Positions 23,024-45,078 of a DNA stretch of 56,274 bases are shown here, in pieces. Position numbers and translations under genes: made by a program. Location of the stretch: positions 1-56,274 of the forward strand of contig JAIXYP010000056.1 in assembly GCA_027490155.1 (NCBI GenBank). Reading direction: 5' to 3'. Source of the stretch: Cytophagaceae bacterium (lineage in GTDB: Bacteria > Bacteroidota > Bacteroidia > Cytophagales > Flexibacteraceae). Below the pieces are notes generated by a model. That model was not told the origin of the DNA. It did no database searches and saw only the letters and a program-made list of their open reading frames with translations. Positions within the stretch are counted from its first letter, which is position 1. Every line of letters starts with the position of its first letter.

Positions 23024-23048
23024 GTAATCGATAGGAATTATGAGGGAC

Positions 23049-23333
23049 CTACCTTAATGCCTTTTTGCGAGTGTTGGGCTGGCGGTCAGTGAGCCAATCG
23101 TCAAGGGAGGTGCCTGGTGGTAGGTCTATTTTAGGGAGACCAGGGTCTATGCCGCCACCGCCATTTCCTCCACCGTCGTTGTCGTCATTGCGATTTCCAT
23201 TGCGCCCAAATGGTCCTCCAAGGTCACCATTATGTCGCCTAAGTACCTTGATGTAGCCGATGAATAGGCCTGTGAGTATCATCAACCCTAAGGCGTTGAA
23301 CGTAATCAGCATCATGAACGAAGGCAGTACCAT
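23049..23333 (-). CDS. Small membrane protein with Gly/Asn/Asp-rich linker
   Basis: A 94-residue protein with a single N-terminal membrane helix (MLITFNALGLMILTGLFIGY). A polar stretch follows with a Gly/Asn/Asp-rich linker (RNDDNDGGGNGGGGID), then a proline-containing segment ending GTSLDDWLTDRQPNTRKKAL. The ATG is clear. I do not recognise a family, but the sequence is protein-like from end to end and opposes plsY convergently with a 25-base gap. An anchor, spacer and short C-terminal peptide suggest a membrane-tethered interaction peptide. Confidence 0.6.
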   Translation of the reverse strand: MVLPSFMMLITFNALGLMILTGLFIGYIKVLRRHNGDLGGPFGRNGNRNDDNDGGGNGGGGIDPGLPKIDLPPGTSLDDWLTDRQPNTRKKALR

Positions 23334-23701
23334 ATTGTTCAGGTCTCTTACTAGGAAAAGTGGTTAACAACTAGGCCAAAAGATGGTCCGGGAAAGCAGA
23401 TTGTTGTAATTGAAGGGAAGCCCACGCAGGATCCTTGGAATGGTCGTAAGCTATGGTCAATGCCAAACAACATGGGCTGGCAATGTGGACTCTACCTTGG
23501 ATGATCCTCAGTCTGACACCAGATCTAAGTTAGCGTTTATATCTCGATGGCTCTATTGGTAATCTCAAAAAAGAAGAAACTCGCTAGTTTTTTGTTCTAG
23601 GGCTTGAGTTAACTGATGTTGTTGATGTTATGCTGCGTAGGCACGAGGATTTGACATTCACTTGCGTTATGTCCAGCTTGGCTCCTTCTGTTGCATCAGC
23701 C

Positions 23702-23732
23702 CAAAAAATAATCCCAGACCAATGGCCTGGGA
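23702..23732 (-). terminator. Rho-independent terminator (minus strand)
   Basis: On the minus strand TCCCAGGCCATTGGTCTGGGA forms a hairpin with complementary ends TCCCAG/CTGGGA and an inner CCA/TGG pairing. It is followed by TTATTTTTTGG. It is suitably placed to end transcription from the gene whose stop is at 23891. Confidence 0.65.
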
Positions 23733-23831
23733 CTATGGAAGTCATAAAATCACGTTCAGTTAAGGTTTGCGTCCTTGCCGAGTTGGAGTGGCAATGGAGA
23801 TTTATCTTGGTGGCTGCTGGTTGGCTATGTT

Positions 23832-23856
23832 GCCTTGAGCTTTATAAGCTCAAGGC
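23832..23856. repeat. Perfect 11-bp hairpin
   Basis: GCCTTGAGCTT, a TAT loop and AAGCTCAAGGC form a perfect stem-loop. On the minus strand the T-run precedes rather than follows it, so it is not an ordinary terminator for the neighbouring gene. It could stabilise an mRNA 3' end or mark a small RNA. Confidence 0.7.
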
Positions 23857-23890
23857 AAAACTACCGACTGGCTAGGCCTGATGCTTCAGG

Positions 23891-24280
23891 TTACTTAACC
23901 TCGATCAGCTGGGTATAGGAGGTCATGTCGTTGCTTACCTCGAGGGTGTATTGCCCAGCAGGCAATTTACTGAGGCTAAAAAGCTCAGAGAAGGTGACCG
24001 ACTTCTTGATCGTATCCCACCAAAGGAGTTGGTTTTGCTCGTTGCGGATGCTGACCTTGAAAGACTCTCCACTTGGGTTGTTGACCGCGATGCGGAAGGT
24101 GTTTTGGGTGTTAGCTTTGTACACGCGAATGTCCATCGCCTTGAAGACATCCACCCGGATGTTGGCACTTGGCACATTGTTGTTGGTTGCGATCTTGGCA
24201 GAAGCTGTTGCGGAAGTCAGTAGCACTAACGCAAAGACTGTAGCGATAAGGGTGCGGGTGATGAGAGCTAGCTTTTTCAT
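23891..24280 (-). CDS. Small exported beta-sandwich protein (DUF3244-like)
   Basis: A 129-residue protein with a strong signal peptide (ITRTLIATVFALVLLTSATA, cleaved near ASA). The mature domain is a single Ig-like beta-sandwich containing TFRIAVNNPSGESFKVSIRN, LLWWDT and a final LPAGQYTLEVSND followed by TSYTQLIEVK. The end resembles both DUF3244 proteins and the last strands of T9SS sorting domains, but the PNP-like opening of a sorting domain is missing. I therefore call it a small periplasmic or secreted protein of unknown function. A likely promoter lies about 125 bases upstream and a terminator about 160 bases downstream, so it appears to be a single-gene transcript. Confidence 0.75.
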   Translation of the reverse strand: MKKLALITRTLIATVFALVLLTSATASAKIATNNNVPSANIRVDVFKAMDIRVYKANTQNTFRIAVNNPSGESFKVSIRNEQNQLLWWDTIKKSVTFSELFSLSKLPAGQYTLEVSNDMTSYTQLIEVK

Positions 24281-24406
24281 AATAATGAGTGGCTTTGGGC
24301 CGTTTGATGTGTCAAAGTTCTGGAGACTGGCCCGTGCCTGAAACTTGTTTTACACTAGCGATACAAATATGGCCTGAGCGGCATTAGCTAGTGTCGAATG
24401 ACAATG

Positions 24407-24435
24407 CAAAGATACACAAAATTTGGCAAAAGCAG
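24407..24435 (-). promoter_or_regulatory. Possible promoter for the small exported protein
   Basis: On the minus strand TATCTTTG (24414-24407) matches the Bacteroidota -7 element exactly. CTG (24435-24433) lies 18 bases upstream in place of TTG. It gives a leader of about 120 bases. Confidence 0.4.
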
Positions 24436-24452
24436 CATTTTAGGTATCATTA
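24423..24452 (+). promoter_or_regulatory. Possible promoter for the MORN-repeat gene
   Basis: TTG (24423-24425), 19 bases, then TATCATTA (24445-24452). The spacing is ideal, but the -7 element has two mismatches to TAnnTTTG. It lies about 30 bases before the ATG and overlaps the candidate divergent promoter. Confidence 0.35.
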
Positions 24453-24481
24453 ACAGAACGTTAACCGTATAATGAGGTATT

Positions 24482-29010: not shown

Positions 29011-29349
29011 CTGGCGAAAGGGTAAAAGATAAAACGTTAGGGAGGTAGCAGCATTTAGCATCTCATTACTCCAAAGTGCGACGCAAAGAAATTGGAATCA
29101 AAAAATGGCTGCTGCTGCAATCTGGTACTAAGACTCATAAAAAAGCCCAGAGGTTGGAACCAGATTGCTGATTAACTACAGCTTAACATCATGATGGGTA
29201 AAAAATAGATTTACGGCTGCTTAGGAGCATGGAAACGAGGGAACCGTTAATACATTGGTGCGATCTGGTGACATGTCAGGCCATGATGGGCATGCCGAAT
29301 TCGTGTCTCAGGCAGAATAATTTCTAGTCAATAGGCCGAGAAACCAATG
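29011..29349. other. Intergenic region, no gene seen
   Basis: About 340 bases between two minus-strand lipoprotein genes. I see no coding frame, no TAnnTTTG promoter on the minus strand and no strong terminator. Confidence 0.5.
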
Positions 29350-30996: not shown

Positions 30997-32076
30997 TTAG
31001 GCCATCTCAGAAACACCTTCTTTAAGACGCTCAGAGTTGTCAACAATGCGGAGCTGCTCAATGAAGTCCTCGATGTCGCCATCCATAACTGCATTAAGGT
31101 TATAGACCGTCATGCCAATACGGTGGTCCGTAACTCGGCTTTGAGGATAGTTATAGGTCCTGATCTTTTCGCTGCGGTCTCCGCTACCTACCATCAGGCG
31201 ACGTTGGGCGCCGATTTCGTTGTTGTGTTTCTCTAGCTCTTTTTCGTAAATACGACTACGGAGTACCTTGAGTGCCTTCTCGAAGTTTTTGATCTGGCTC
31301 TTTTCGTCTTGGCACTGGACAACTACACCTGTCGGGATGTGTGTCAGGCGGATAGCGCTATAGGTCGTGTTGACAGACTGTCCACCTGGGCCAGAGCTAC
31401 AGAAAGTATCCTTACGGATGTCGTTCATGTTGAGGTCCACATCCACCTCTTCGGCTTCAGGCAGGACAACAACACTAGATGCTGATGTATGTATACGGCC
31501 AGCAGTTTCAGTCGCAGGGACACGTTGCACGCGGTGGACACCACTTTCCCACTTCATTTTGCCATAGACATCCTCGCCGCTTACGCTGCAAACGATCTCT
31601 TTGAAACCGCCGCTGGTGCCATCGGTGTAGTCCAATAGTTCCATTTTCCAGCCTTTTTTCTCGGCAAAACGTTGGTACATACGGTAGAGGTCACCCGCAA
31701 AGATGGATGCCTCGTCTCCACCAGCACCCGCCCGGATCTCTAGCACGACGTTTTTGGAGTCGTTCGGGTCTTTAGGGATAAGCAGATCACGGATAATGAG
31801 CTCTAGCTCTTCGCGTTTAGGGTTAAGTTCTTCGAGCTCGGCCTTGGCCATCTCGCGGAAATCTTGGTCCTTTTCCGTCTCTAGCACCTCACGGGCACTT
31901 TCGATATTGCTCAGGAGGCTGTCGTAAGCTTGGTACTGCTTCTCGATCTTTTCGAGGTCTTTGTACTCCTTGCTTAGCTTGCTGAAACGTTTCATGTCTG
32001 CCATCGCATCGGGCTCAACCAAGAGCTGCCCAACTTCTACGAAACGATTATGGATGGCTTCTAACTTGTCTAACAT
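30997..32076 (-). CDS. prfA: Peptide chain release factor 1
   Basis: Terminates translation at UAA and UAG. The 359-residue protein has the stop-codon recognition motif PAT within VQRVPATETAGRIHTS (about 183-198), where RF2 would have SPF. It also has the peptidyl-hydrolysis motif GGQ in SSGPGGQSVNTTYSAIRL (near 230). The N-terminal coiled-coil domain (LDKLEAIHNRFVEVGQLL) and the AGAGGDEASIFAGDL segment are normal. The ATG at 32076 gives the usual start; an in-frame reading back to 32244 adds 56 Cys/Arg-rich residues unlike any RF1. Confidence 0.97.
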   Translation of the reverse strand: MLDKLEAIHNRFVEVGQLLVEPDAMADMKRFSKLSKEYKDLEKIEKQYQAYDSLLSNIESAREVLETEKDQDFREMAKAELEELNPKREELELIIRDLLIPKDPNDSKNVVLEIRAGAGGDEASIFAGDLYRMYQRFAEKKGWKMELLDYTDGTSGGFKEIVCSVSGEDVYGKMKWESGVHRVQRVPATETAGRIHTSASSVVVLPEAEEVDVDLNMNDIRKDTFCSSGPGGQSVNTTYSAIRLTHIPTGVVVQCQDEKSQIKNFEKALKVLRSRIYEKELEKHNNEIGAQRRLMVGSGDRSEKIRTYNYPQSRVTDHRIGMTVYNLNAVMDGDIEDFIEQLRIVDNSERLKEGVSEMA

Positions 32077-32513
32077 AGTGGTATTGGGGTCCGGATCTTG
32101 GCCGATACCCGCTTCTGGATATTGAGGGGATGCACATCGTGTGCCAATCGCTCGGCAAAATGGCTGAGCGCACCAGACACATAAATGCCGGGATACAAAG
32201 TTACGTAATCTAGGCCAAAATCGGCAAAGTCTGACAAGATCCATCCAAGACTGCCCAATGGATGACAGTCTGGCAGGAGACTTCTATGGTTTTAAGCCTA
32301 GGTAGGATCAATCAGGCCTAAGCGCAACTCTGGGCCAATTAGGAAGGACTAACCCAAAGTGGCCACACGGTTCAAAAGAGGTAAAGCTGACCTAAATGGA
32401 TAAAATATTTTAAGCCAAATCCTTAACGATGAGCCCGGTTCTCCTGTATTTTGGTGGCGGCTGCCAACAATTTTGTTAAATTGCCCGTTAAACGAGAAAC
32501 CGTAATTACCACC
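32077..32513. other. Intergenic region between divergent prfA and ahcY
   Basis: About 435 bases. It holds a candidate minus-strand promoter for prfA (32196-32227). On the plus strand I found no good TTG-N19-TAnnTTTG match ahead of ahcY and no recognisable SAH or SAM riboswitch core. Confidence 0.5.
32196..32227 (-). promoter_or_regulatory. Possible promoter for prfA
   Basis: On the minus strand TAACTTTG (32203-32196) is an exact match to the Bacteroidota -7 element TAnnTTTG. TTG (32227-32225) lies 21 bases upstream, two more than ideal. It would give a leader of about 110 bases. Confidence 0.4.
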
Positions 32514-33824
32514 ATGGTAGAAACAACATACTTGCCTTATAAGGTAAAAGACATGTCCCTAGCCGACTGGGGCCGCAAAGAGATCAAACTTGCCGAAGCT
32601 GAGATGCCTGGCTTGATGTCCCTGCGCGAAGAGTATGGCAAACAAAAGCCACTCAAAGGTGCTCGTATTGCTGGCTGCCTTCACATGACGATCCAGACTG
32701 CTGTCCTGATTGAGACACTAGTCGAGCTCGGTGCTGAGGTGACCTGGAGTAGCTGCAACATCTTCAGCACACAAGACCATGCTGCTGCAGCAATTGCTGC
32801 AGCTGGTATAGCGGTCTATGCTTGGAAGGGCATGAACGAAGAGGAATTCAACTGGTGCATCGAGCAGACTTTGTTCTTTGGTGAAGACCGCAACCCACTC
32901 AATATGATCCTTGATGATGGTGGTGACCTGACCAACCTCGTTCTTGATCATTACCCTGAGTTGGTAGCTGGTATCCGTGGTATCTCAGAAGAGACTACCA
33001 CAGGTGTGCTCCGTCTTTATGACCGCATGAAGGCTGGCACCTTGCCACTTCCTGCGATCAACATCAATGATTCTGTAACCAAGAGCAAGTTTGACAACCT
33101 CTACGGTTGCAAAGAAAGCTGTGTGGATGCCATCCGCCGTGCTACCGATGTGATGATGGCAGGCAAAATTGCTGTCGTTGCTGGTTTTGGCGACGTAGGC
33201 AAAGGCTCTGCTAAGTCATTGCGTGGTGCTGGTGCCCGTGTTATCATCACCGAGATCGACCCGATCTGTGCGCTACAAGCAGCCATGGAAGGCTTTCAGG
33301 TGATGCCGATGGACAAAGCTGCCAAAATTGGTGACATCTTTGTGACCGCAACTGGCAACAAAAACATCATCGTTGGCCGCCACTTCGAGGCCATGAAAGA
33401 CAAAGCCATTGTCTGCAACATCGGTCACTTTGACAACGAAATTGATGTCGCTTGGCTCAATGATAACTTTGGTAACACCAAGGTTGAGATTAAACCACTG
33501 GTTGATCTTTACACCGTTGGCAACAAAGAGATCTTGTTGTTGGCTGAAGGTCGCCTCGTTAACCTTGGTTGCGCCACTGGCCACCCATCATTCGTGATGA
33601 GCAACAGCTTCACCAATCAAACCATCGCTCAGCTGGAGCTTTGGCAGAATAGCGAAAACTATGAGCCTAAGGTCTATGTATTGCCTAAGGCTTTGGACGA
33701 AAAGGTGGCCAAGTTGCACCTCGCCAAAATCGGCGTGGAGCTCGAGGTACTAACTCAAGACCAAGCCAACTACATTGGCGTACCGGTAGAAGGCCCTTAC
33801 AAAGGAGACGCTTACCGCTACTAG
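32514..33824 (+). CDS. ahcY: Adenosylhomocysteinase
   Basis: Hydrolyses S-adenosylhomocysteine to adenosine and homocysteine, clearing the product of SAM-dependent methylation. The 436-residue protein has the substrate-domain segment [20 protein letters not shown], then [33 protein letters not shown] and the NAD-binding [31 protein letters not shown] and the C-terminal PYKGDAYRY that closes the neighbouring subunit's NAD site are also present. The ATG at 32514 is the natural start. A strong terminator follows. A degraded inverted copy of this gene's 3' end, with a matching terminator, lies at 42242-42388. Confidence 0.98.
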
Positions 33825-33852
33825 TACTGTATCAGCCTTGCTGATGATGAAG

Positions 33853-33882
33853 ACCCTCCATGTAATGTGGAGGGTTTTTTTT
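33853..33882 (+). terminator. Rho-independent terminator of ahcY
   Basis: ACCCTCCA and TGGAGGGT form a perfect 8-bp stem around TGTAATG, followed by eight T residues. The sequence from the ahcY stop through this terminator is repeated, inverted and slightly diverged, near 42.25-42.30 kb. Confidence 0.9.
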
Positions 33883-34059
33883 GTGCCTTTTGTGTTTGGC
33901 TGAGATGATTTTCACCCTCAATTCATCCACCCACCACCCACCAAAACCGTTCCTCAAAAATCTGGCCCACATCCATTGTGGATTCAATTGAAGCAGATAC
34001 CTTCGTGATGTCAAATTGATATCACAAGCACATCAAACCTCTTCAAGTTGACCCTACCC

Positions 34060-34917
34060 ATGGAAAAGCAATTCAGCACAAAAAGCGGATACGCCATTCT
34101 CTTCCTCAGCCTCCTGATGCTAGTCGTTGGCATTGGGGCTTTTTTCCTCAGGACGCCAATCGCCATAGTCGGTGGCATTGTCTTGACCCTGACCTCGATC
34201 ATCCTCATGTGTGGGTTTTTGATCATCGAACCTGGCGAAAGCATGGCCTTCATCATGTTTGGCGACTATCGGGGCAGCAGCCGCAATAGTGGTTTCTTCT
34301 GGGCCAACCCCTTCATGACCAAGAAGAAGGTATCGCTAAGGGCCCAAAACCTGAACGGCGCCCACCTCAAAGTCAATGACCTGAACGGAAACCCGATCGA
34401 GATTGCAGCCGTCGTGGTCTGGCAGGTCAAGGATAATGCCAAGGCCATCTTTGCCGTCGAGGACTATAAAAACTATGTCAGCATCCAGAGTGAGGCAGCT
34501 GTCCGGCACATGGCCAACCGTTTCCCGTATGATTCTAGCGAGGACACCCACGAATCCTTAACCCTGAGGGGTGGTGGCGATCAGGTCTCTGAGCTATTGG
34601 TGCAAGAACTAAATGAACGCCTTGCACAGGCAGGAATCGAGGTAACCGAAGCACGCCTAAGTCACCTGGCTTATGCACCCGAGATCGCAAGTGCCATGCT
34701 CCAACGTCAACAGGCTTCTGCGATCGTTTCGGCCCGCAAACTCATTGTCGAAGGGGCCGTAGGGATGGTCGAAATGGCCCTTGAGCGCCTTAACGAAAAA
34801 CAAATTGTCCAGCTGGACGAAGAGCGCAAAGCTGCTATGGTCTCTAACCTCTTGGTGGTGCTGTGTAGTGAGCGGGCTGCAACCCCAGTGGTCAATACAG
34901 GTACACTACATCCCTAG
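34060..34917 (+). CDS. SPFH/Band-7 (prohibitin-fold) membrane protein
   Basis: A 285-residue protein with two N-terminal membrane helices (about 12-30 and 34-56). A proline-containing turn, [14 protein letters not shown], leads into the SPFH domain (about 60-245): [61 protein letters not shown] and [20 protein letters not shown] are typical blocks. SPFH proteins form large ring assemblies in membranes. The ATG at 34060 is preferred to a TTG four codons upstream. It is followed after 80 bases by a small Arc-like ribbon-helix-helix gene, a pairing I recall as recurrent in Bacteroidota. Confidence 0.9.
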
Positions 34918-34997
34918 GTCTGGCCTAACCTGGACGCATTGTAACACAATGGAGCCCAGATAACCCTTCATTGATCACCTAAGTTAGGCCAATCATC

Positions 34998-35279
34998 ATG
35001 GCAACTGACGAACAAAATCAGGGTCTGAACCAGATCAATATCAACCAAGCCGCTGGCCTCAATCCCACAAAGGTTGAGGCTAGTAGTGCGTCTGCCGTAC
35101 CTGATCAGGAAAAATCTAACCTAGGAGCCCAAAGCAAGAAACCCTTTGCCCTCAGGATTAGTAGCCAAACGATGGAAGCACTCGAGCACTGGGCAGCGCA
35201 AGAGTTCAGGAGTGTAAACGGTCAGATAGAGTACTTGCTTTCGAAGGCCATAAAGGAACATTTCAAAAAGGAGCATTAA
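34998..35279 (+). CDS. Arc-like ribbon-helix-helix protein
   Basis: A 93-residue protein. Residues 1-48 are polar, Asn/Gln/Ser-rich and probably disordered. Residues 49-90 (KPFALRISSQTMEALEHWA, QEFRSVNGQIEYLLSKAI) match the beta-helix-helix fold of Arc/CopG-type DNA-binding proteins. The family binds DNA as dimers through the beta strand FALRISS. In Bacteroidota these small proteins often accompany an SPFH gene, as here, so the partner may be the SPFH protein rather than a promoter. Its last four bases overlap the end of the convergent DegT aminotransferase gene. Confidence 0.8.
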   Translation: MATDEQNQGLNQININQAAGLNPTKVEASSASAVPDQEKSNLGAQSKKPFALRISSQTMEALEHWAAQEFRSVNGQIEYLLSKAIKEHFKKEH

Positions 35280-36511
35280 GCAAGCAAATTGCTATGCATT
35301 GCCCAAAACGAATCTAGGCCATTGATAATACGGTCAAGCTCTTGATCGCTAAGCATGGGATGGGACGGAAGGCTCAAACATTCCGCTGCCCATGCCTCAG
35401 CTTCCAGAAAGTCCCCTGCCTGATATCCTAGGTGGGCCAACACAGGCTGTAAATGCGTCGGGCAGGGGTAGTGAATCATGGTCTGTATACCTTGAGCAGT
35501 TAGGTGTTGTTGGAGTTCTGCCCGTTTCGTAGTCCTGATCACAAAAAGGTGGCCGTTGCCGTCGTCATGGGTAAGCGGAAGCTGGATCAAATCAGGTTGT
35601 GTATTGCCATAACATGCAGCTAGGCCTTCCAATGCATGGTTAAGCCGTTGAGTTACCTTGATTTTTTGTTGATTAAATTCCACTAGACCCAGCAATGTTA
35701 CCCGCAGAAAGGCTGCCTGCAGCTCATCCAACCGATAGTTGCCCCCTTGTTCGGTAGATACAAATCGATCAGCACCATTTCCATAATCACGAAGAGATCT
35801 CAGTCTTTCTGCAAGTGCTGGGTCAGATGTGGTGATGGCACCAGCCTCGCCTAAGGCCCCAATGTTTTTGGTTGGGTAAAAACTAGTGGCAGATATGGCA
35901 TAATTGCCCGAACCTACCTGTCCTCCAGGAACCCTATCGGACCAGACACCTTGGCCTTGGGCATTATCTTCTATAATCTTGATGTTAGGATAATGGTCTA
36001 GAACATCTAGTATGTTGATCCAGTCAGCAGCACGCCCATACAGGTTTACGACAATTACAGCCTGAAGCACTTGTTCGCACAAGACCATTTCTAGGGCCTT
36101 AAGGTCCATGTTACCAGACTGGCGATCTACGTCTATTGGCACTATGGTTGCCCCTGTGGCCAGAACTGCCATTGCCGTCGCTGGGCAGGTATGTGCAGGG
36201 ACGCCAACACGATCACCTGGGCCTAGTCCATATACCTTAAGGCACAAAAGCAAAGCATCAAAACCAGAGCCGACACCAATGGCGTATTTTGCCCCAGAGA
36301 CAGACGCCCATTCCTGCTCAAAAGCCGCCAATTGTGGACCATTAACTAACCAAGCGGAGTCTAGGACGGCGTCAAATGCCTGTTGATATTGATCCCTGTG
36401 CTTAGCTAGCTGAAGGGCCATTGGCCAAAATGGAACTGTAGGTCCAAGATTTGGTTGGACTTTTTTCTGATGGGCAGGAAAAGTGCGGAGTCGGCTAGTG
36501 TCGCTTGACAT
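35276..36511 (-). CDS. DegT/DnrJ/EryC1/StrS-family aminotransferase
   Basis: A 411-residue PLP-dependent aminotransferase of the sugar-modifying type, which adds an amino group to keto-sugar nucleotides. GVGSGFDALLLCLKVYGLGPGD contacts the cofactor phosphate, and VIVVNLYGRAADW and IIEDNAQGQGV (near 185) follow. The PLP lysine lies in SFYPTKNIGALGEAGAI (near 220). RSLRDYGNGADRF and GGNYRLDELQAAFLRV are classic family segments, and MIHYPCPTHLQP ends the active site. It stands alone here, without the usual dehydratase or acetyltransferase next to it; the CapD-like dehydratase is 17 kb away. Substrate unknown. Confidence 0.93.
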   Translation of the reverse strand: MSSDTSRLRTFPAHQKKVQPNLGPTVPFWPMALQLAKHRDQYQQAFDAVLDSAWLVNGPQLAAFEQEWASVSGAKYAIGVGSGFDALLLCLKVYGLGPGDRVGVPAHTCPATAMAVLATGATIVPIDVDRQSGNMDLKALEMVLCEQVLQAVIVVNLYGRAADWINILDVLDHYPNIKIIEDNAQGQGVWSDRVPGGQVGSGNYAISATSFYPTKNIGALGEAGAITTSDPALAERLRSLRDYGNGADRFVSTEQGGNYRLDELQAAFLRVTLLGLVEFNQQKIKVTQRLNHALEGLAACYGNTQPDLIQLPLTHDDGNGHLFVIRTTKRAELQQHLTAQGIQTMIHYPCPTHLQPVLAHLGYQAGDFLEAEAWAAECLSLPSHPMLSDQELDRIINGLDSFWAMHSNLLA

Positions 36512-36577
36512 ACGATCGCCTATGGATCAAGACAGATTAGGCCAAAGCTAAAAAACAAAAGCACTTAAATAGTCAGA

Positions 36578-36859
36578 TTACTTGACCTTAGGCGAAGCCG
36601 AGGAGGCAAACAATGACCTATTTTGGGTCTGAATCCGTCGGTTGGGGTTGTTGTGGGTGGACAATTTGGTCACCCTGTCCGAAAGCAATATAGTTTGCTT
36701 GGTTGACGTTACCTCTGATGAAAATTGGGCAACTAGGTGGGGCTGTGTACCACTACTGAGGTATCCTCTCTGTGCCATAAATGCAATCCCGACCATGAGG
36801 TACATCGCTAACATTTTAGCGATAAACGGTGGGGTGTAATATTTTTTCTTCCAGTTCAT
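36578..36859 (-). CDS. Small single-helix protein, function unknown
   Basis: A 93-residue protein with an ATG start and an AAAGGG element directly upstream. It has a basic N terminus (MNWKKKYY), one hydrophobic segment (about 12-30, FIAKMLAMYLMVGIAFMAQ) and a Ser/Thr/Asn-rich tail. The segment could be a signal anchor. I do not recognise a family, and a short sequence of this kind could still be spurious. It lies between the DegT gene and mscS with little other coding possibility. Confidence 0.5.
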   Translation of the reverse strand: MNWKKKYYTPPFIAKMLAMYLMVGIAFMAQRGYLSSGTQPHLVAQFSSEVTSTKQTILLSDRVTKLSTHNNPNRRIQTQNRSLFASSASPKVK

Positions 36860-37000
36860 ACCCTTTGGGGGTTAGGTCAGTTTACATGTGGCTTTTTTGG
36901 CGGCTGTGGGTCTCTTAATATGGTGTAGATGGGCCGATATTGACCAACTTTGTACTTTCGGCACGCAGTTGAGCATTAAACATCAGTTAAAATTAGGGCT

Positions 37001-38134
37001 ATGCCTTCACTTTTCCAAACATTGCCTCATTTTTTCGATCAAGAAGTCGCTGGTAACGCCATACGGTACTGGGGACTGTGGTTGCTGATCTTGGTGCTTG
37101 GGCTGGTTACGAAACAATTTGTGAGCAGTGCATTTAGTAAGCTTGTTTACAAAGTTTTACTCCGGATTAAGGCCGAAGATGCTGCTGACCCAGGCAACGC
37201 CAATAGCCATGGTGTGCTCAAGTTTTACCAGCAGATGCACAGCCCACTCGAGGCTCTGTTTACTTGGTTTTATATCTATATCGCCTTTACTTTCTTAGTC
37301 TGGCCTCCTGCTTTAGTTGAGGTTCTGAGCCGACATTTCGACCTTGCGGCGGTATCTTCCTTCCTTTATCGGACCGCACTGATTGGTATAATGACCTCGC
37401 TCGCACTGAGGCTCATGAACTACTTTGTCGAGACCCTCAAAGTAACTCAAACCCAAGCGCCTGCACCTAAGGTCTCTAGTCAGGCCTTGATGTTTCTGAA
37501 AGAGGCTGGCCGTATTGGCATTTTTATCGTTGCGTTTCTCGTCTTTTTAGGCCTAGCACTTGGTCGGGATGTAGGCGCAGTAATAAGCGGACTGGGCATC
37601 AGTGGTTTGGCGATTGCCTTTGCTGCAAAAGAGACACTCGAGAACCTAATTGCTTCGGTCATCATCTTTGTTGACAAACCGTTTTCGGTTGGGGACTTTG
37701 TAGAGCTGGGGTCGGAGAAAGGTACTGTTGAGATGGTAGGGCTTCGCTCCACCCGAATCAGGACGCTAGACCGCACCTTGGTCAGTATCCCTAATCGGAA
37801 GATTGTGGATGGATCGCTTAATAACGTTTCGGTCCGCCCCAATACCCGCATCAAATTTATGCTGGGCCTCCACCACGGCACATCGGTTGATTCAATTGAG
37901 CAAATGATCGCGAATACGAAACGATTTATCCTCGATCACCCCAGCACTTCGACTGAGAACTACCTCTATATCAATCAGATACAAGATCAAGGAGTCTATG
38001 TTTTGGTGCAGTATTATGTTAACTCGTTAGACTCAGACATCATTTGGCAAACCCAACAAGATGTTAACGTCTTCATCCTGAAGCAAACCGAGACCTTAGG
38101 CATTGCATTTGCAGAAGTTGCCAAACCAGCCTAA
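37001..38134 (+). CDS. MscS-family mechanosensitive ion channel
   Basis: A 377-residue channel that opens under membrane tension and protects against osmotic downshock. Four or five hydrophobic segments are visible (about 22-45, 88-108, 125-145, 165-185 and 195-215). The last is the pore-lining TM3, with the Gly/Ala pattern AVISGLGISGLAIAFAAKE. The beta domain follows (VIIFVDKPFSVGDFVEL, then GTVEMVGLRSTRIRTLDRTL and SIPNRKIVDGSLNNVS), and then a C-terminal alpha/beta domain. All parts of an MscS core are present, with one or two extra N-terminal helices. Confidence 0.95.
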   Translation: MPSLFQTLPHFFDQEVAGNAIRYWGLWLLILVLGLVTKQFVSSAFSKLVYKVLLRIKAEDAADPGNANSHGVLKFYQQMHSPLEALFTWFYIYIAFTFLVWPPALVEVLSRHFDLAAVSSFLYRTALIGIMTSLALRLMNYFVETLKVTQTQAPAPKVSSQALMFLKEAGRIGIFIVAFLVFLGLALGRDVGAVISGLGISGLAIAFAAKETLENLIASVIIFVDKPFSVGDFVELGSEKGTVEMVGLRSTRIRTLDRTLVSIPNRKIVDGSLNNVSVRPNTRIKFMLGLHHGTSVDSIEQMIANTKRFILDHPSTSTENYLYINQIQDQGVYVLVQYYVNSLDSDIIWQTQQDVNVFILKQTETLGIAFAEVAKPA

Positions 38135-38195
38135 TGCGGGTCTTTGTAATTACCAGATTGCCCTAACCCCAAAGTTCCTAACCTGTTGAGACACC

Positions 38196-40154
38196 ATGTT
38201 AATACTTCGCACAACCGCTAAAGGTCTCATCAATTACCCTAATGGGCGATACCGCCCAATAGCTCCCTACCTCAGGTATTTGGTTTTGCTGTGCTTCGTT
38301 TTGTTAGCAGGATACCAAAGACTTCAGGCACAGGATCTTTCTGCTGGCGAAAAGGCGGCACGCAAAAGTGCAGATCGTTATTATAGCGGAAAGAACTATT
38401 ACATGGCCCTCGAGGGCTATTTACCGATTCTCAAGGCTCACCCAGAGGATGTGGACCTTAACTATGTCGTAGGCATGTGTTACCAACAAGGTTGGGACAA
38501 AGAAAAGGCACTTGGCTACCTAGCCAAGGCGGCACTAGGTAGCCCCAAACCAACTAAGGAGTTGATGTTCGCTTATGGTTCTGCGCTACACTTTGACAAT
38601 CAGTTTGACGAGGCCATCAAATGGTACCGCAAAGCAGATCCTCTGGGCACCAACCGCTACATCACCTCCAAACGCATTAACGAATGTTTGCATGGTAAAC
38701 GATTGGTGGCCGCCCCAGTTAAAGCAGTCATTAGCAACTTGGGTAATGTCATCAACACCGCCTATAACGAATACCTGCCCCTCCTGACGGCTGACCAGCT
38801 CACGATGGTTTTCACATCACGTAGGCCAAACACCACAGGAGGTAAAAAAGATGCAGATGGCCAGTTCCTTGAGGATATCTATATCAGCAAGATGGCCAAT
38901 GGTAGCTGGAGTCGCCCACAGGCCCTTCCTGAGCCACTTAATAGCCGTGACCATGATGCTTGCGTGGGCCTAAGTGCCGATGGCCAAACGATGTTTATTT
39001 ACAAAGGCAAAAATGGTGGCGACATCTACATCTCCAAACTAGATGGCAAAACTTGGGGCTCACCGCAACCATTTGAGTTCAATTCGGACAAGTTCGAAAG
39101 TAGTGCCTTCCTGTCCCATGATGGCAACCGACTTTACTTCGTGAGCGACCGGGCCGGAAACAAGGACATCTACATCTGCCGTAAAACGTTCAAAGGTGCT
39201 TGGGGGAAACCCAGCTACATGAACCAAAATATCAACACCTCTTTTGATGAAGAGAGCCCATGCGAAAGTGCTGACGGCAAGTGGCTTTACTTTAGCAGCA
39301 AAGGGGCAACCTCTATGGGGGGGTATGATATTCTGCGCGTACCAATCAGCTCGGTTGGTGCCACCGGCATGAGCGAAAACCTAGGCTACCCAATCAATAC
39401 CGCTGGGGATGACCTCTACTTCAACTTGTCGCCTGACGGCAAGTTTGGCTACTTCAGCAGTGAAAAGGCTGGTGGATATGGCCGTCAGGACCTCTATGTG
39501 ATCTCCATGCCTCCACCTGCCCAGCCACCTGGTGTGACCCTAGTCCGTGGGGTGATTAAGGACGCGGCCACTGGCAAACCGACCCAAGCCACTGTCATTA
39601 TCACCGACAACGAGGCAGGCAAAGAAGTCGCCACCCTAACCTCCAACAGTGTCACAGGCGAGTTTAGCATCAGCTTGCCAAGTGGTAATAACTATGGGAT
39701 CGCTGTCGAGAAGTCAAAACGCTTGTTCTATAGCGAAAACCTCCAGATCAAAGTTTCTGATGGATTTGTTGACCTGAAGCGGGACATCGTTTTGCCAACG
39801 ATTGCGAAAGGCAACAAGATGATCCTGCGCAATATGTTTTATGATAACAACATCTCCGACTTGCGTTCTGCCAGCTTTCCTGAACTCAATAGGGTTGTGG
39901 CCTTGCTCAAAACAGAGCCAACAATGGTGGTTGAGGTCGGAGGGCATACTGACAACGTAGGTAATGCCGATTACAACCAAAAGCTTAGCCTCAAACGTGC
40001 CACTGATGTGATCAACTACTTGGTCAAGAATGGTATTGCCACCAAACGCCTTGTCCCGAAAGGATATGCCAGCAGCCAACCCATCGCCCCAAATACCACC
40101 GAGGACGGCAGGCTCCAGAATAGGCGGACCGAGATTATGGTGTTGAAGGAGTAA
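38196..40154 (+). CDS. PorE-like OmpA-family protein (TPR, PD40 propeller, OmpA domain)
   Basis: A 652-residue exported protein. A signal peptide ends near QRLQAQ (about 46). TPR-like helices follow (about 55-165, AARKSADRYYSGKNYYMALE and FDEAIKWYRKADPL). A WD40/PD40 propeller lies at about 190-425, with repeats such as LSADGQTMFIYKG, LSHDGNRLYFVSDRAGNKDI and SPDGKFGYFSS. A CarboxypepD-regulatory beta-sandwich (about 440-520) and a C-terminal OmpA domain close the protein, the last with GGHTDNVGNADYNQKLSLKR and GRLQNRRTEIMVL. The OmpA part binds peptidoglycan. This architecture matches PorE-type proteins associated with the type IX secretion system, but other OmpA/PD40 proteins share it. Confidence 0.85.
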   Translation: MLILRTTAKGLINYPNGRYRPIAPYLRYLVLLCFVLLAGYQRLQAQDLSAGEKAARKSADRYYSGKNYYMALEGYLPILKAHPEDVDLNYVVGMCYQQGWDKEKALGYLAKAALGSPKPTKELMFAYGSALHFDNQFDEAIKWYRKADPLGTNRYITSKRINECLHGKRLVAAPVKAVISNLGNVINTAYNEYLPLLTADQLTMVFTSRRPNTTGGKKDADGQFLEDIYISKMANGSWSRPQALPEPLNSRDHDACVGLSADGQTMFIYKGKNGGDIYISKLDGKTWGSPQPFEFNSDKFESSAFLSHDGNRLYFVSDRAGNKDIYICRKTFKGAWGKPSYMNQNINTSFDEESPCESADGKWLYFSSKGATSMGGYDILRVPISSVGATGMSENLGYPINTAGDDLYFNLSPDGKFGYFSSEKAGGYGRQDLYVISMPPPAQPPGVTLVRGVIKDAATGKPTQATVIITDNEAGKEVATLTSNSVTGEFSISLPSGNNYGIAVEKSKRLFYSENLQIKVSDGFVDLKRDIVLPTIAKGNKMILRNMFYDNNISDLRSASFPELNRVVALLKTEPTMVVEVGGHTDNVGNADYNQKLSLKRATDVINYLVKNGIATKRLVPKGYASSQPIAPNTTEDGRLQNRRTEIMVLKE

Positions 40155-40188
40155 TCCTTAAGGACTTGATGTCCAAACCCAAAGTTGC

Positions 40189-41664
40189 CTAATCAGGGCC
40201 TACCCCCCCAATCACCAGCCGCATAACAAAGGTGCCATGTTGTGTTGCAAATTTGACATAATATAGCCCAGGGCTTACTTGCCGCAGGTCGAGATGCTCT
40301 CCGATGTAGTAGGTGCCTGAACGCACAACTTGCCCAGCCGAGCTGCAAAGTTGGTACCGACCCACCGTGCCATAAGGCATATCATGGATAACAGTATGCC
40401 CCACTGCTGGGTTAGGAGACAGCCGAGGATACCAACGGTCTGGCACACCAGTAACGGGTTTGTCTGTACTATTAATAACAGGTGGTTTGTAAGGCCGCCC
40501 TACATTGCTGATGCGGATGACGCCAGGACGAACTTGAAACATACTAGTTAAATCAATTCCATTGCCCGCACAAGTTGCGTTTTGAGTGGCACTATCCAAA
40601 AAACAAAAGTGCGTGCCTACCCTTTGTTGCGAATTATTTATTGGCGTCTTGGAGCGATAGAAAAATGTGGACCGATCTAGCGACATTCGTTCGACATTGA
40701 AAGAATCAGCGCTTTGCATGCCACCAGAGCCGTAAAAACAAGTAAAACTCCCATCTCCTGCAATGATAGGTGGGGTGGAACTAATATACTTCAACGTATC
40801 CAACCACTCAACATTAAAGTTGCGATCTAACTTGGCCAGAAACCCATGTTGGGACCCAGCGCCTACATACCGCCGTCCCCAAAGTAGGTAACTACCATCA
40901 GGCGCTACGCTGAGTTTGGCCGTATTGAACCCCTTGCTCGTCGGTTCGTCATAAAGGACCCCTTGGCCTATTTGGTTGCCATTGCCATCGATCAGGATAT
41001 AAAACACCGAGGCCCCATAGATGGCTGGGATCATAAAAGTATCTGGTTTGATTTCGTGCACACCGATGACAGACGGTGCCCTGAATTGAGGCAAATATTC
41101 CTGCTGCCAAATGTAGATCCCCCCTGTAGCCACCCGGCTAGCATACAAGATCGGCAATTGCCCGACAGTATCAGGCACGATCAAACCAGCAACCACAAAA
41201 TCACCAATGGCATTGGCTGTCATAGCTTGAGGGCGAGGATATTTGCGTGGAAGTGTATAGTCTGAACGCCAACGCAAAACCCCGTTGGTATCAAAAGCTG
41301 TGATAACCTGTGTTTTTTGATCAGTAGTCAGGCTATAATCTTCTTTCGCCACAAGCGCCACTATCTCACTCGGATCATTTGGGTGGACCATGAGCTGTGC
41401 TGGATAGCCCACTATACCTAGGTTATAATATCCTATTGAATCCAGATTCTGATTGACTTTTAGTACACCTGCACCAGGCAGAAACAACCTAAAACTTTGA
41501 CCAATAGAATAATCTTGACACAAGATAAATGATGATTTGTTATTCTCAATAGCTCCAACAACCATTGCATCATCAGGCCTCGGAAATTGTTTCTGCCCAA
41601 ACATAGTTTGAGCAGAAACAGAGGTTCCGATAAACAATAAAGATATCAGGATGAGGTACCTCAT
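40189..41664 (-). CDS. T9SS type-A cargo protein of unknown function
   Basis: A 491-residue protein with a signal peptide (MRYLILISLLFIGTSVSAQ). The body has repeated blade-like segments (GDFVVAGLIVPDTVGQL, GSYLLWGRRYVGAGSQHG, GSFTCFYGSGGMQSAD), suggesting a beta-propeller. The C terminus is a T9SS type-A sorting domain (about 415-485): PRLSPNPAVGHTVIHDM, then CSSAGQVVRSG and LRQVSPGLYYVKFATQHG. After secretion this domain would be removed by a PorU-type sortase. Its ATG overlaps the TGA of the upstream small sorting-domain gene as ATGA, so the two are translationally coupled. Confidence 0.85.
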   Translation of the reverse strand: MRYLILISLLFIGTSVSAQTMFGQKQFPRPDDAMVVGAIENNKSSFILCQDYSIGQSFRLFLPGAGVLKVNQNLDSIGYYNLGIVGYPAQLMVHPNDPSEIVALVAKEDYSLTTDQKTQVITAFDTNGVLRWRSDYTLPRKYPRPQAMTANAIGDFVVAGLIVPDTVGQLPILYASRVATGGIYIWQQEYLPQFRAPSVIGVHEIKPDTFMIPAIYGASVFYILIDGNGNQIGQGVLYDEPTSKGFNTAKLSVAPDGSYLLWGRRYVGAGSQHGFLAKLDRNFNVEWLDTLKYISSTPPIIAGDGSFTCFYGSGGMQSADSFNVERMSLDRSTFFYRSKTPINNSQQRVGTHFCFLDSATQNATCAGNGIDLTSMFQVRPGVIRISNVGRPYKPPVINSTDKPVTGVPDRWYPRLSPNPAVGHTVIHDMPYGTVGRYQLCSSAGQVVRSGTYYIGEHLDLRQVSPGLYYVKFATQHGTFVMRLVIGGVGPD

Positions 41665-42023
41665 TGTTTGATGATTTTGGTGTAAGTGGTACCGACTTGG
41701 AGGTGGTAGATACCAGCAGGAGCATCAATTAGTCGCAGCTCAACTTGATCCTCATCAACTTGTTTGCGCTCCAGCTGTACTTGTTTGCCAGTAGATGTAA
41801 CACAACGGATAACATCGCCACCATGCGTCATAATCCTGAAGCTATTGCTAAACGGATTCGGCATCACACGAACGGTTTTCTCAAGCTCTAGTCCATCGAT
41901 TTCCGTTACTCTGGGTGCAGCAAGCGGGAAGTAGATTTTGTCAGCTAGGTTGCTGCAGACTAATTCTGCATTGATACCGTTTGGGTTGTATTGAAAAGTA
42001 GATCTCATAGGAAGGGTTAGCAT
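41661..42023 (-). CDS. Stand-alone T9SS sorting-domain-like protein, no signal peptide
   Basis: A 120-residue protein. The last 70 residues form a recognisable type-A sorting domain: VRVMPNPFSNSFRIMTHGGD, then CVTSTGKQVQLERK and LIDAPAGIYHLQVG, ending TYTKIIKQ. The N-terminal half (MLTLPMRSTFQYNPNGINAE, then LVCSNLADKIYFP) contains no signal peptide. An in-frame TAG sits seven codons upstream of the ATG, so no longer version exists. It is either the surviving 3' end of a broken cargo gene or a short protein that keeps this module inside the cell. Its TGA overlaps the next gene's ATG. The region immediately upstream holds the ahcY relic. Confidence 0.7.
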   Translation of the reverse strand: MLTLPMRSTFQYNPNGINAELVCSNLADKIYFPLAAPRVTEIDGLELEKTVRVMPNPFSNSFRIMTHGGDVIRCVTSTGKQVQLERKQVDEDQVELRLIDAPAGIYHLQVGTTYTKIIKQ

Positions 42024-42241
42024 GATAACATGAAGGTTTGGCTACTTTCAAGTGATTTGGTAAAAACCTAAGGTAACCAAAAACGCCTATCGAACTAAAA
42101 AAGTGGCAATAATTGCAGTTAGGGCTAATACTGTGCTTTAGATAGACAGGGTAGGAGCTTCGAAAGTTGCCTCTACCGCCATACTTATTTTCAACACTTT
42201 AGCCCCAACTCATTTTCAGCAATCCGATTTCCACCCTTAAA

Positions 42242-42275
42242 CAAAAAAAACCTCCACATTACATGGAGGGTTTTA
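42242..42275. terminator. Terminator copy belonging to the ahcY relic
   Basis: On the minus strand CCTCCATGTAATGTGGAGG is followed by eight T residues, nearly the same as the ahcY terminator at 33853-33882. On the plus strand the same stem is followed by TTTTA, so it may also act in that direction. Confidence 0.75.
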
Positions 42276-42298
42276 TCATCAGCTAGGCTGAAAAAAGA

Positions 42299-42388
42299 CT
42301 AGTAGCGGTAGGCGTCGCCTTTGTACATGCCTTTGGCAAAACATAGACCATTGGCTGCTAGTTTTTGCCTTTTGCCATAGCGCCAGCT
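42299..42388 (-). pseudogene. Relic of a second ahcY, 3' end only
   Basis: The minus strand reads AGCTGGCGCTATGGCAAAAG, then a stretch ending GGTCTATGTTTTGCCAAAGG, then TACAAAGGCGACGCCTACCG and the stop TAG at 42301-42299. Against ahcY (33632-33824) this aligns to the codons for [20 protein letters not shown] and then jumps to YKGDAYRY plus stop. The missing 103 bases lie between two AAGGC copies in ahcY (33687-33691 and 33790-33794). The deletion shifts the frame, and a 1-base loss occurs upstream. The stop-to-terminator spacer is also preserved. The relic is inverted relative to ahcY and about 8.4 kb away. It is too diverged to be a recent copy. Confidence 0.85.
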
Positions 42389-42588
42389 ACCCTTACATAC
42401 ACGTAATGGCAAGTGTCATTTTTGCAACTAGGCATCCAGACTAACGTCCTCGCTTCACCTACCCACAGTATCCATACTTGGCAATGACCCAGCTAGGTCC
42501 TATGTAATACTTGGTATTTAAGGGTCAATTACAGTACCCAAGTGCATCCGGATACCCACCGTGCTGGTTTTTTCCTTATTTTCGGGGT

Positions 42589-44973
42589 ATGAAAAACGGT
42601 TACATGCGCCTAATTGGCATGAAAACATTGGTTAAGGGCCTGCTAATTGGCGGCCTAACTGCTTTGGCCTCGGTGCACACCATTGCCCAAACCACCCCAG
42701 AGCTGACAGATCAGTCACGTTTCAGGCAGCTGGGACAAGAGCTACCGACACCAAATACCTATAGGTCAGCATCTGGTGCGCCAGGGCATGAATATTGGCA
42801 ACAACGTGCCGATTATGATATCTCTGTCACACTTAATGATGACGACCTCAACCCAAGTGTCGATGGGGTTGAGACCATCACCTACTACAACAACTCGCCT
42901 GACGAGCTGAGGTATGTTTGGCTGCAGCTTGACCAGAACATCTTCAAACCCAACGGCATAGCCAACCTGACCAATACTAGCACCATCGAAGAGGCAGGGA
43001 TGTCGGTCGATCAGGCCTTGAAACGCAAAAATCCTTGGGCTGGCGGCTATACCATCAAGGCGGTCACGGATGTAGCAGGCAAAGGGCTACCCTATACGAT
43101 CAACGAAACGATGATGCGGGTCGATTTGCCAATGCCGCTAAAATCAAAGGGGACCTATAGCTTTAAGGTGAGCTGGTACAACCTCATTAACGAGGGTAAA
43201 AAGCAAGGCGGACGTGGTGCCTACGAACATTTTGACGAGGACAACAACAACCTTTACGAAATGGCGCAGTGGTTCCCTCGGATGTGTGTCTATGACGATG
43301 TCTGGGGTTGGCAACACAAACAATACCTTGGCCGTGGTGAGTTTGCCCTTGAGTTTGGCAACTATCGGGTCAAAATCAATGTGCCGGCTGACCACATCGT
43401 TGGGGCTACAGGCGAGCTCCAGAACAGCGCAGCCGTACTGACCGCAACCCAAATAAGTCGTCTTCGTACTGCCGAAACTGCCAAGCATCCACTCAAAATT
43501 GTGTCTGAAGATGATGCACTTGAGGCCATCAAGACCAAGGCTAAGGGCCGCAAAACTTGGGAGTTTTATGCAAAGAATGTTCGCGACTTTGCTTGGGCCA
43601 GTAGCCGCCGTTTCATCTGGGATGCCATGCGGATCAATGTCGCTGGCAAACCAGTTTGGGCCATGAGCTACTATCCTAAGGAGGGTAATCCACTTTGGGG
43701 TAAGTACAGCACCGAGGTTGTTGCCCATACCATCAAGGTATATAGTCGCTATTCTATCAACTACAACTATCCCGTAGCAATCAGTGTGCATGGGCCGATT
43801 GGTGGTATGGAATACCCGATGATTTGTTTCAACGGTGGGCGCCCCTTGAAGGATGGTACCTATTCAGAGCGAACTAAGTATGGCATGATCTCAGTCATTA
43901 TCCATGAGGTGGGCCATAATTTTTTCCCGATGATCATCAGTAGTGATGAGCGCCAATGGAGCTGGATGGATGAGGGTCTGAACACCTTTATGCAATACCT
44001 GACCGAGCAGGAGTGGCAACGTGACTACCCAAGTCAGCGGGGAGAACCCTATAAAATTGCGGCCTACATGAAGAGCGACAAGGCAGGACAGGCACCGATT
44101 ATGGTCAACAGCGAAAGTGCGATTAACTTCGGTAACAATGCCTACGGAAAACCAGCTACTGGTCTCAATATCTTGCGGGAGACGATCCTTGGCCGTAAGT
44201 TGTTTGACTATGCCTTTAAGGAATATTGCCGCCGTTGGGCTTTTAAACACCCTGCCCCTGCTGACTTTTTCAGGACCATGGAAGATGCCAGCGGTACGGA
44301 CCTAGATTGGTTCTGGCGCGCATGGTTCTACACAACAAACCATGTTGATATTGCTATTACGGGTGTCAAACATACGCAGCTCGGAAGCCCAGACCCGGCC
44401 AAAGCCATGGCAGCAAAAAAAGCAGATGAGCAAGAACCTGTTACGCTTTCGTCCCAACGGAACCTGCAAGACATCAAGGCAACTGTTGTAGAGGAAAATC
44501 CGGATATGAAGGACTTTTATAATAGCTATGACCAATACAAACCATCGGCCGAAGAGGTCGAAAAGTACCAGAAGGCCCTAGCTGTGATGAAGCCTGAAGA
44601 AAAGGCGCTGTACGAAAACGGACTGCATTTTTACCAACTCAACTTTGAGAACCGTGGTGGGGTCATGATGCCAATTATCCTCCGGATGGAGTTTGCAAAC
44701 GGCAAAGACAGCGTTGCAAGGATACCCGTCGAGGTATGGCGCCTGAACGATAAAACGATCAGCAAGGTTTTCATGACAGACCAGCCCGTGCAGCAGTTTA
44801 CGCTCGATCCGTATCTGGAAACTGCAGATGTGGACACTGATAATAATTTTTACCCTGCCAAAAATAAAGCGTCACGTTTTCAGTTGTTTAAAGAGGCACC
44901 GCAAGGTCCGAGGTTTGGACCTCAGCAAGGACCGAATCCTATGCAGCGTGAAAGACAAAAGACATCTAAATAG
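42589..44973 (+). CDS. M1-family zinc metallopeptidase, exported
   Basis: A protein of about 794 residues with a signal peptide (MKTLVKGLLIGGLTALASVH, then TIAQ). The gluzincin active site is HEVGH (His439 onward) followed by the zinc-ligand glutamate in WSWMDEGLNTFMQY. GPIGGMEYPMI supplies the exopeptidase motif that is GxMEN in classical aminopeptidases; here Asn is replaced by Tyr. An N-terminal beta-domain (VDGVETITYYNNSPDELRYVWLQL as two adjoining segments) and a C-terminal Glu/Gln/Pro-rich tail complete it. Starts at 42589 or 42619 both fit. It probably trims peptides in the periplasm or at the cell surface. A PorU2-like gene follows after 105 bases. Confidence 0.92.
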   Translation: MKNGYMRLIGMKTLVKGLLIGGLTALASVHTIAQTTPELTDQSRFRQLGQELPTPNTYRSASGAPGHEYWQQRADYDISVTLNDDDLNPSVDGVETITYYNNSPDELRYVWLQLDQNIFKPNGIANLTNTSTIEEAGMSVDQALKRKNPWAGGYTIKAVTDVAGKGLPYTINETMMRVDLPMPLKSKGTYSFKVSWYNLINEGKKQGGRGAYEHFDEDNNNLYEMAQWFPRMCVYDDVWGWQHKQYLGRGEFALEFGNYRVKINVPADHIVGATGELQNSAAVLTATQISRLRTAETAKHPLKIVSEDDALEAIKTKAKGRKTWEFYAKNVRDFAWASSRRFIWDAMRINVAGKPVWAMSYYPKEGNPLWGKYSTEVVAHTIKVYSRYSINYNYPVAISVHGPIGGMEYPMICFNGGRPLKDGTYSERTKYGMISVIIHEVGHNFFPMIISSDERQWSWMDEGLNTFMQYLTEQEWQRDYPSQRGEPYKIAAYMKSDKAGQAPIMVNSESAINFGNNAYGKPATGLNILRETILGRKLFDYAFKEYCRRWAFKHPAPADFFRTMEDASGTDLDWFWRAWFYTTNHVDIAITGVKHTQLGSPDPAKAMAAKKADEQEPVTLSSQRNLQDIKATVVEENPDMKDFYNSYDQYKPSAEEVEKYQKALAVMKPEEKALYENGLHFYQLNFENRGGVMMPIILRMEFANGKDSVARIPVEVWRLNDKTISKVFMTDQPVQQFTLDPYLETADVDTDNNFYPAKNKASRFQLFKEAPQGPRFGPQQGPNPMQRERQKTSK

Positions 44974-45078
44974 ATTTTGCCTGACCTTGCCCATCTCCTA
45001 GAGGTGGGCATTGGTTATTTTGCCAATACTGGCAGACATGCTACATGGCAATCCTACCATTTGACCTGCACCAACGAA

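Follow-up and report, generated by a model that had tools for sequence, protein, structure and literature searches.

Partial gene duplications and gene-fragment pseudogenes are a known kind of sequence. The fragment described here resembles a gene-fragment pseudogene in that it is a recognisable piece of a housekeeping gene, broken in its frame by a deletion and non-coding, but it differs in that the part kept is the 3' end with its terminator and in that it is common to two species. It also bears the likeness of an intrinsic (Rho-independent) terminator, with a G+C-containing hairpin followed by 7-8 T and the same hairpin letters in both species; however, the predicted terminator here stands not behind a live gene but between divergent genes, and one G of the ahcY stem has been lost. 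We show that the window, by which we mean the whole stretch of 56,274 nucleotides analysed, holds a shortened inverted copy of the end of ahcY, that the copy and its internal deletion are older than the split of the two species, and that its former coding part drifts whereas its terminator end has a higher identity between them. The features of the two sites are as follows.

32514 to 33824, plus strand: intact ahcY (Pfam PF05221 and PF00670), the sole ahcY found in the genome
33631 to 33884, plus strand: source interval, with the end of ahcY, its stop, the spacer and the terminator (alignment)
33692 to 33794, plus strand: the 103 nt absent from the copy, whose exact position within AAGGC is ambiguous (alignment, sequence)
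42241 to 42388, minus strand: incomplete, non-coding copy of the 3' end of ahcY (alignment with 33631-33884); the same fragment lies at L013 6311-6458 of the sister genome, G001
42334 to 42388, minus strand: former codons upstream of the deletion (score 52.0 against a shuffle maximum of 31.2, n=500)
42329 to 42333, minus strand: AAGGC at the deletion junction (sequence; two AAGGC 103 nt apart in ahcY)
42299 to 42301, minus strand: relic of the ahcY stop codon TAG (alignment)
42279 to 42291, minus strand: small hairpin between stop and terminator, which folds in the window copy, the lowest-energy structure of the G001 copy pairing otherwise there
42243 to 42269, minus strand: intrinsic-terminator-like hairpin (42251-42269) and a run of 8 T (scan, fold, hairpin letters the same in G001)
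41661 to 42023, minus strand: downstream 120-aa frame with a C-terminal sorting-tag match (PF18962, 27.2 bits, cut-off 27), 82.7% identical to residues 761-870 of a G001 frame
42589 to 44973, plus strand: M1 peptidase, divergent neighbour (Pfam PF01433)

An inverted copy of the ahcY gene end

As the earlier note had proposed, the 3' end of ahcY, together with its terminator, is present a second time, inverted and decayed, 8.4 kb from the intact gene: when reverse-complemented, 42388-42241 aligns with 33631-33884 with a single large gap of 103 nt. The likeness outside the terminator, on which that note had staked its reading, is not random, since the segment upstream of the gap alone outscores all 500 dinucleotide shuffles (52.0 against 31.2 for the best of them), and chance likeness to ahcY is thus ruled out. 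The 103 bases said to be missing between two AAGGC repeats are likewise borne out by the sequence, in which AAGGC stands at 33687-33691 and at 33790-33794 of the intact gene with a spacing of 103 nt, and the same short-direct-repeat deletion is found in G001. The figure of about 60 codons given for the copied end applies loosely to the source interval, which comprises some 64 codons up to the ahcY stop, but not to the copy, in which about 30 codons' worth remain.

When the window was compared with itself by blastn, the 3' part of the copy was the sole repeat at E <= 1e-6, with 86.3% identity to ahcY over 95 nt (E 4e-23). Across the whole genome to which the window belongs (69 contigs, 3.99 Mb, the window being the complete contig 22), a search with the fragment gave itself and ahcY as the only matches at E <= 0.001, which rules out a dispersed repeat. 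A known RNA family is ruled out by the lack of any Rfam match up to E 1 over 31500-45000, and an assembly artefact by the presence of the fragment, with differences of its own, in the second assembly. In both species the 103-nt deletion puts the sequence out of frame, and no frame of at least 80 aa among those listed lies within the fragment. With its homology to ahcY beyond chance, its coding capacity lost and its former coding part drifting at a non-coding rate, the fragment is an ahcY gene-fragment pseudogene.

Age and conservation within the genus

When the spacer was used as a query against 98 genomes, G001, the sole other genome returned for the genus, was besides the own genome alone in holding it (81% over 361 nt). 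Five further genomes gave matches of 26-37 nt only, and the best two of those five (G049 and G076) had no ahcY in the 3-kb locus by tblastn; the fragment was absent from 9 of the 9 other family genomes in the same query. The copies of G001 and the window agree in their 5' edge, in the deletion and in the terminator hairpin, so that the fragment, already shortened, is older than the split of the two species. Moreover, G001 contigs C260 and C193 share a 130-base overlap without mismatch, and the order and orientation from the SPFH gene to the M1 gene are therefore the same in G001 as in the window. The ahcY gene of G001 lies on contig C33. Directly behind the ahcY T-run this contig runs into a multi-copy element and breaks off inside it, and C260 starts within the other end of that element; from these two contig ends and the gene order of the window, we infer that C33 and C260 adjoin.

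The element is a 1.39-kb repeat of G001 with an IS110-type transposase (PF01548, PF02371). Its copies lie at L014 1-130 (behind ahcY), at L127 about 400-1790 (complete), in L128 and in L129, and the matching empty site of the window is at 33875-33885. Hairpins are predicted in all four left flanks found (C33 behind ahcY, C2, C79 and C59), each of which ends in 8 or more T, and TTTTGTG stands in all five right flanks found. To judge from these flanks, the element may have the T-runs of intrinsic terminators as its target. A search of the 10 remaining family genomes, among them the own genome, did not find the element ends, and the accessible part of PMC9208149 makes no mention of insertion into terminators.

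Between the window and G001, identical sites number 160/193 in the M1 leader (14 gap columns), 42/52 in the segment upstream of the deletion (3 gap columns), 29/36 in the former coding part downstream of it (0 gap columns) and 56/58 from the stop to the T-run (2 gap columns). The former coding part (71/88) does not differ from eight short spacers (778/919; p 0.36). The longest prfA frame extends into spacer 32151-32513. The stop-to-T-run end stands above the same eight spacers (p 0.011) and above the rest of the fragment together with the M1 leader (p 0.004), in a comparison that comprises one species pair and 58 sites and in which the split at the stop codon was chosen after the alignment had been seen. 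The eight-spacer control leaves out two conserved outliers, 23024-24481 (1.46 kb, with a 129-aa frame in G001) and 36860-37000, and with these restored (all ten, 2232/2509) p becomes 0.084; ten of the 13 spacers were measured, with no row for 29062-29349, 33825-34059 and 36512-36577. For the 3' part as a whole, substitutions give p 0.11 against the leader and 0.12 against the segment upstream of the deletion, neither of them significant, and with gaps included p 0.027 and 0.064, respectively. The excess conservation of the stop-to-T-run end is modest and dependent on the comparison chosen. The terminator end has probably been kept while the rest drifts, a retention that is not firm because it is read from one species pair; the earlier remark that the terminator is the better conserved part thus holds between species, with the reservation that its significance varies by comparison.

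Origin of the copy and competing explanations

The hairpin CCTCCATGTAATGTGGAGG stands behind the window ahcY, in both copies and, with two changes, behind the G001 ahcY, and the ahcY ends of 8 other family members carry terminators unrelated to it. As this terminator is common to both genomes of the genus and absent in the 8 others, the ahcY that served as the source was the genus's own, and the copying took place within the genus. The deletion is present in both copies, and both have lost one G of, or after, the ahcY terminator stem. In the segment upstream of the deletion, the G001 copy agrees with each of the two ahcY genes at 51/55 sites, the window copy with its own ahcY at 43/54, and the copies with each other at 43/53. 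Neither these pair counts nor the deletion and the one-G loss common to both copies point to recent conversion by ahcY.

We lean, with moderate confidence, towards a partial copy of a gene end whose coding part has decayed and whose terminator has been retained and works on the minus strand. At least about 254 bp, comprising the 3' end of ahcY with its intrinsic terminator, would have been copied inversely into the spacer upstream of the M1 gene in the ancestor of the two genomes, and the 103-nt deletion between the AAGGC repeats would have followed before the two species diverged. The former coding part, by then dead, would have drifted like spacer, while the end from stop to T-run would have been retained as an intrinsic terminator of the minus strand, shielding the secretion-tag genes from divergent transcription out of the M1 leader. 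Both the termination and any selection for it are put forward here as what the conservation and the predicted fold point to.

The same fragment might have no present function, its terminator end being conserved by chance, and this we regard as possible, if on the unlikely side: the sites are few and significance hangs on the control (p 0.11 to 0.004), but 56/58 sites are kept where fourfold sites are identical at 136/200 in ahcY and 148/269 in OmpA. The earlier note saw instead the remains of a second adenosylhomocysteinase gene; such a gene could have been complete, duplicated within the genus and then lost save for its 3' end. Lost duplicates do leave decayed fragments, and the copy has become shorter, as its internal deletion shows. 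Nevertheless, the edge is abrupt and common to both species, and no ahcY similarity was found in the upstream flanks, which scored 18.0 in the window (mean of 300 mononucleotide shuffles, 19.3) and 23.0 in G001 (reached by 23 of 300). The intact second ahcY that was to be looked for in related genomes did not appear either, each of 11 family genomes having one ahcY match. A whole second gene is accordingly rather doubtful, and the copying appears to have been partial in extent.

It is also conceivable that the copy is the scar of an inversion, in which an 8.4-kb segment was inverted and staggered breaks at the end of ahcY produced an inverted duplicate at the far end of that segment. Inverted-duplicate scars of inversions occur in other organisms, and both the inverted orientation and the position of the copies at the ends of one segment would suit such an event. 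The segment, however, has the same orientation towards the M1 gene in G001, so that any inversion would have to be older, and no ancestral order can be read since gene order around the locus is not kept in the outgroups; we consider an inversion improbable. Still less credible is an RNA-templated copy of the 3' end of the ahcY mRNA, 5'-truncated, ending at the transcript end and with a template jump at AAGGC. The likeness does stop at the T-run, where the mRNA is expected to end, and the left edge may be secondary, because the left flanks of the window and G001 copies do not align with each other; against this, an RVT_1 domain was found in neither of the two genomes at E <= 0.001, which disfavours such a copy. 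We found no support for the proposal that an acquired ahcY, now at 32514, replaced an old native gene of which the fragment is the relic. The copy and the intact gene share a terminator unseen behind ahcY in 8 other family members, and ahcY is absent from 7 of the 7 outgroup M1 loci read, with almost nothing to be read upstream of M1 in G007, whose contig ends about 20 nt upstream of it. The sample of M1 loci was without G009 and without G002 and G001, neither of which had an M1 match at the cut-off, the G001 contig breaking off within the M1 leader. Replacement therefore seems next to impossible.

The neighbourhood and predicted termination

The fragment lies in the spacer between the M1 gene (42589, plus strand) and two minus-strand frames, the farther of which (40189-41664) matches PF18962 at 22.5 bits, under the cut-off of 27. 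The interval from ahcY to the tag genes holds matches to SPFH, ribbon-helix-helix (25.4 bits, cut-off 26), DegT aminotransferase, MscS and OmpA/PD40. The 120-aa frame at 41661-42023 corresponds to the last 110 residues of an 870-aa frame that is intact in G001 (L013 3381-5993), and the rest of that gene is absent from the own genome in a DNA-level search; the window lineage seems, on this comparison, to have lost the front of the gene beside the fragment. The 870-aa protein of G001 had no Pfam match at E <= 0.001. Elsewhere in the window, the spacer 36860-37000 upstream of the MscS-like gene is identical to G001 at 140/141 sites, against 778/919 in the eight other short spacers, within a region (36579-38411) that is 92.9% identical overall; this spacer had no Rfam match.

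Both copies fold into a hairpin followed by a T-run, of 8 T in the window and 7 T in G001. Their fold energies are -15.1 and -14.1 kcal/mol, against -25.8 kcal/mol for the ahcY terminator, and 3 and 7 of 200 shuffles were as stable, against 0 of 200 for the ahcY terminator, the stretches compared differing in where in the T-run they end. The scan of 1.5 kb gave 2 terminator-like sites, against 1.5 by chance, and these include a weaker one on the plus strand. TAnnTTTG is the promoter motif of Bacteroidetes, and a motif scan found no such site in 41950-42660 of the window or in L013 5900-6697; sigma-70-like sites numbered 3, against 2.2 expected, and neither scan found a promoter reading into the fragment. 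On the evidence of the predicted structure and its position, the fragment would end transcription from the M1 leader before it reaches the minus-strand genes. Alternatively, it might work in trans, through a plus-strand RNA antisense to the end of the ahcY mRNA or a minus-strand RNA mimicking it, which we think very unlikely; if true, it would couple ahcY expression with the neighbouring peptidase and secretion-tag genes.

The fragment is most likely a non-coding gene end, its predicted intrinsic terminator retained between the divergent M1 gene and the minus-strand secretion-tag genes. The kind of event is familiar, and what we describe is ordinary genome wear and reuse. It offers a two-species example of how a spacer may gain a ready-made terminator, when a gene end is copied, the coding part decays and the stop signal stays, and its value is that drift and retention can be compared inside one fragment.
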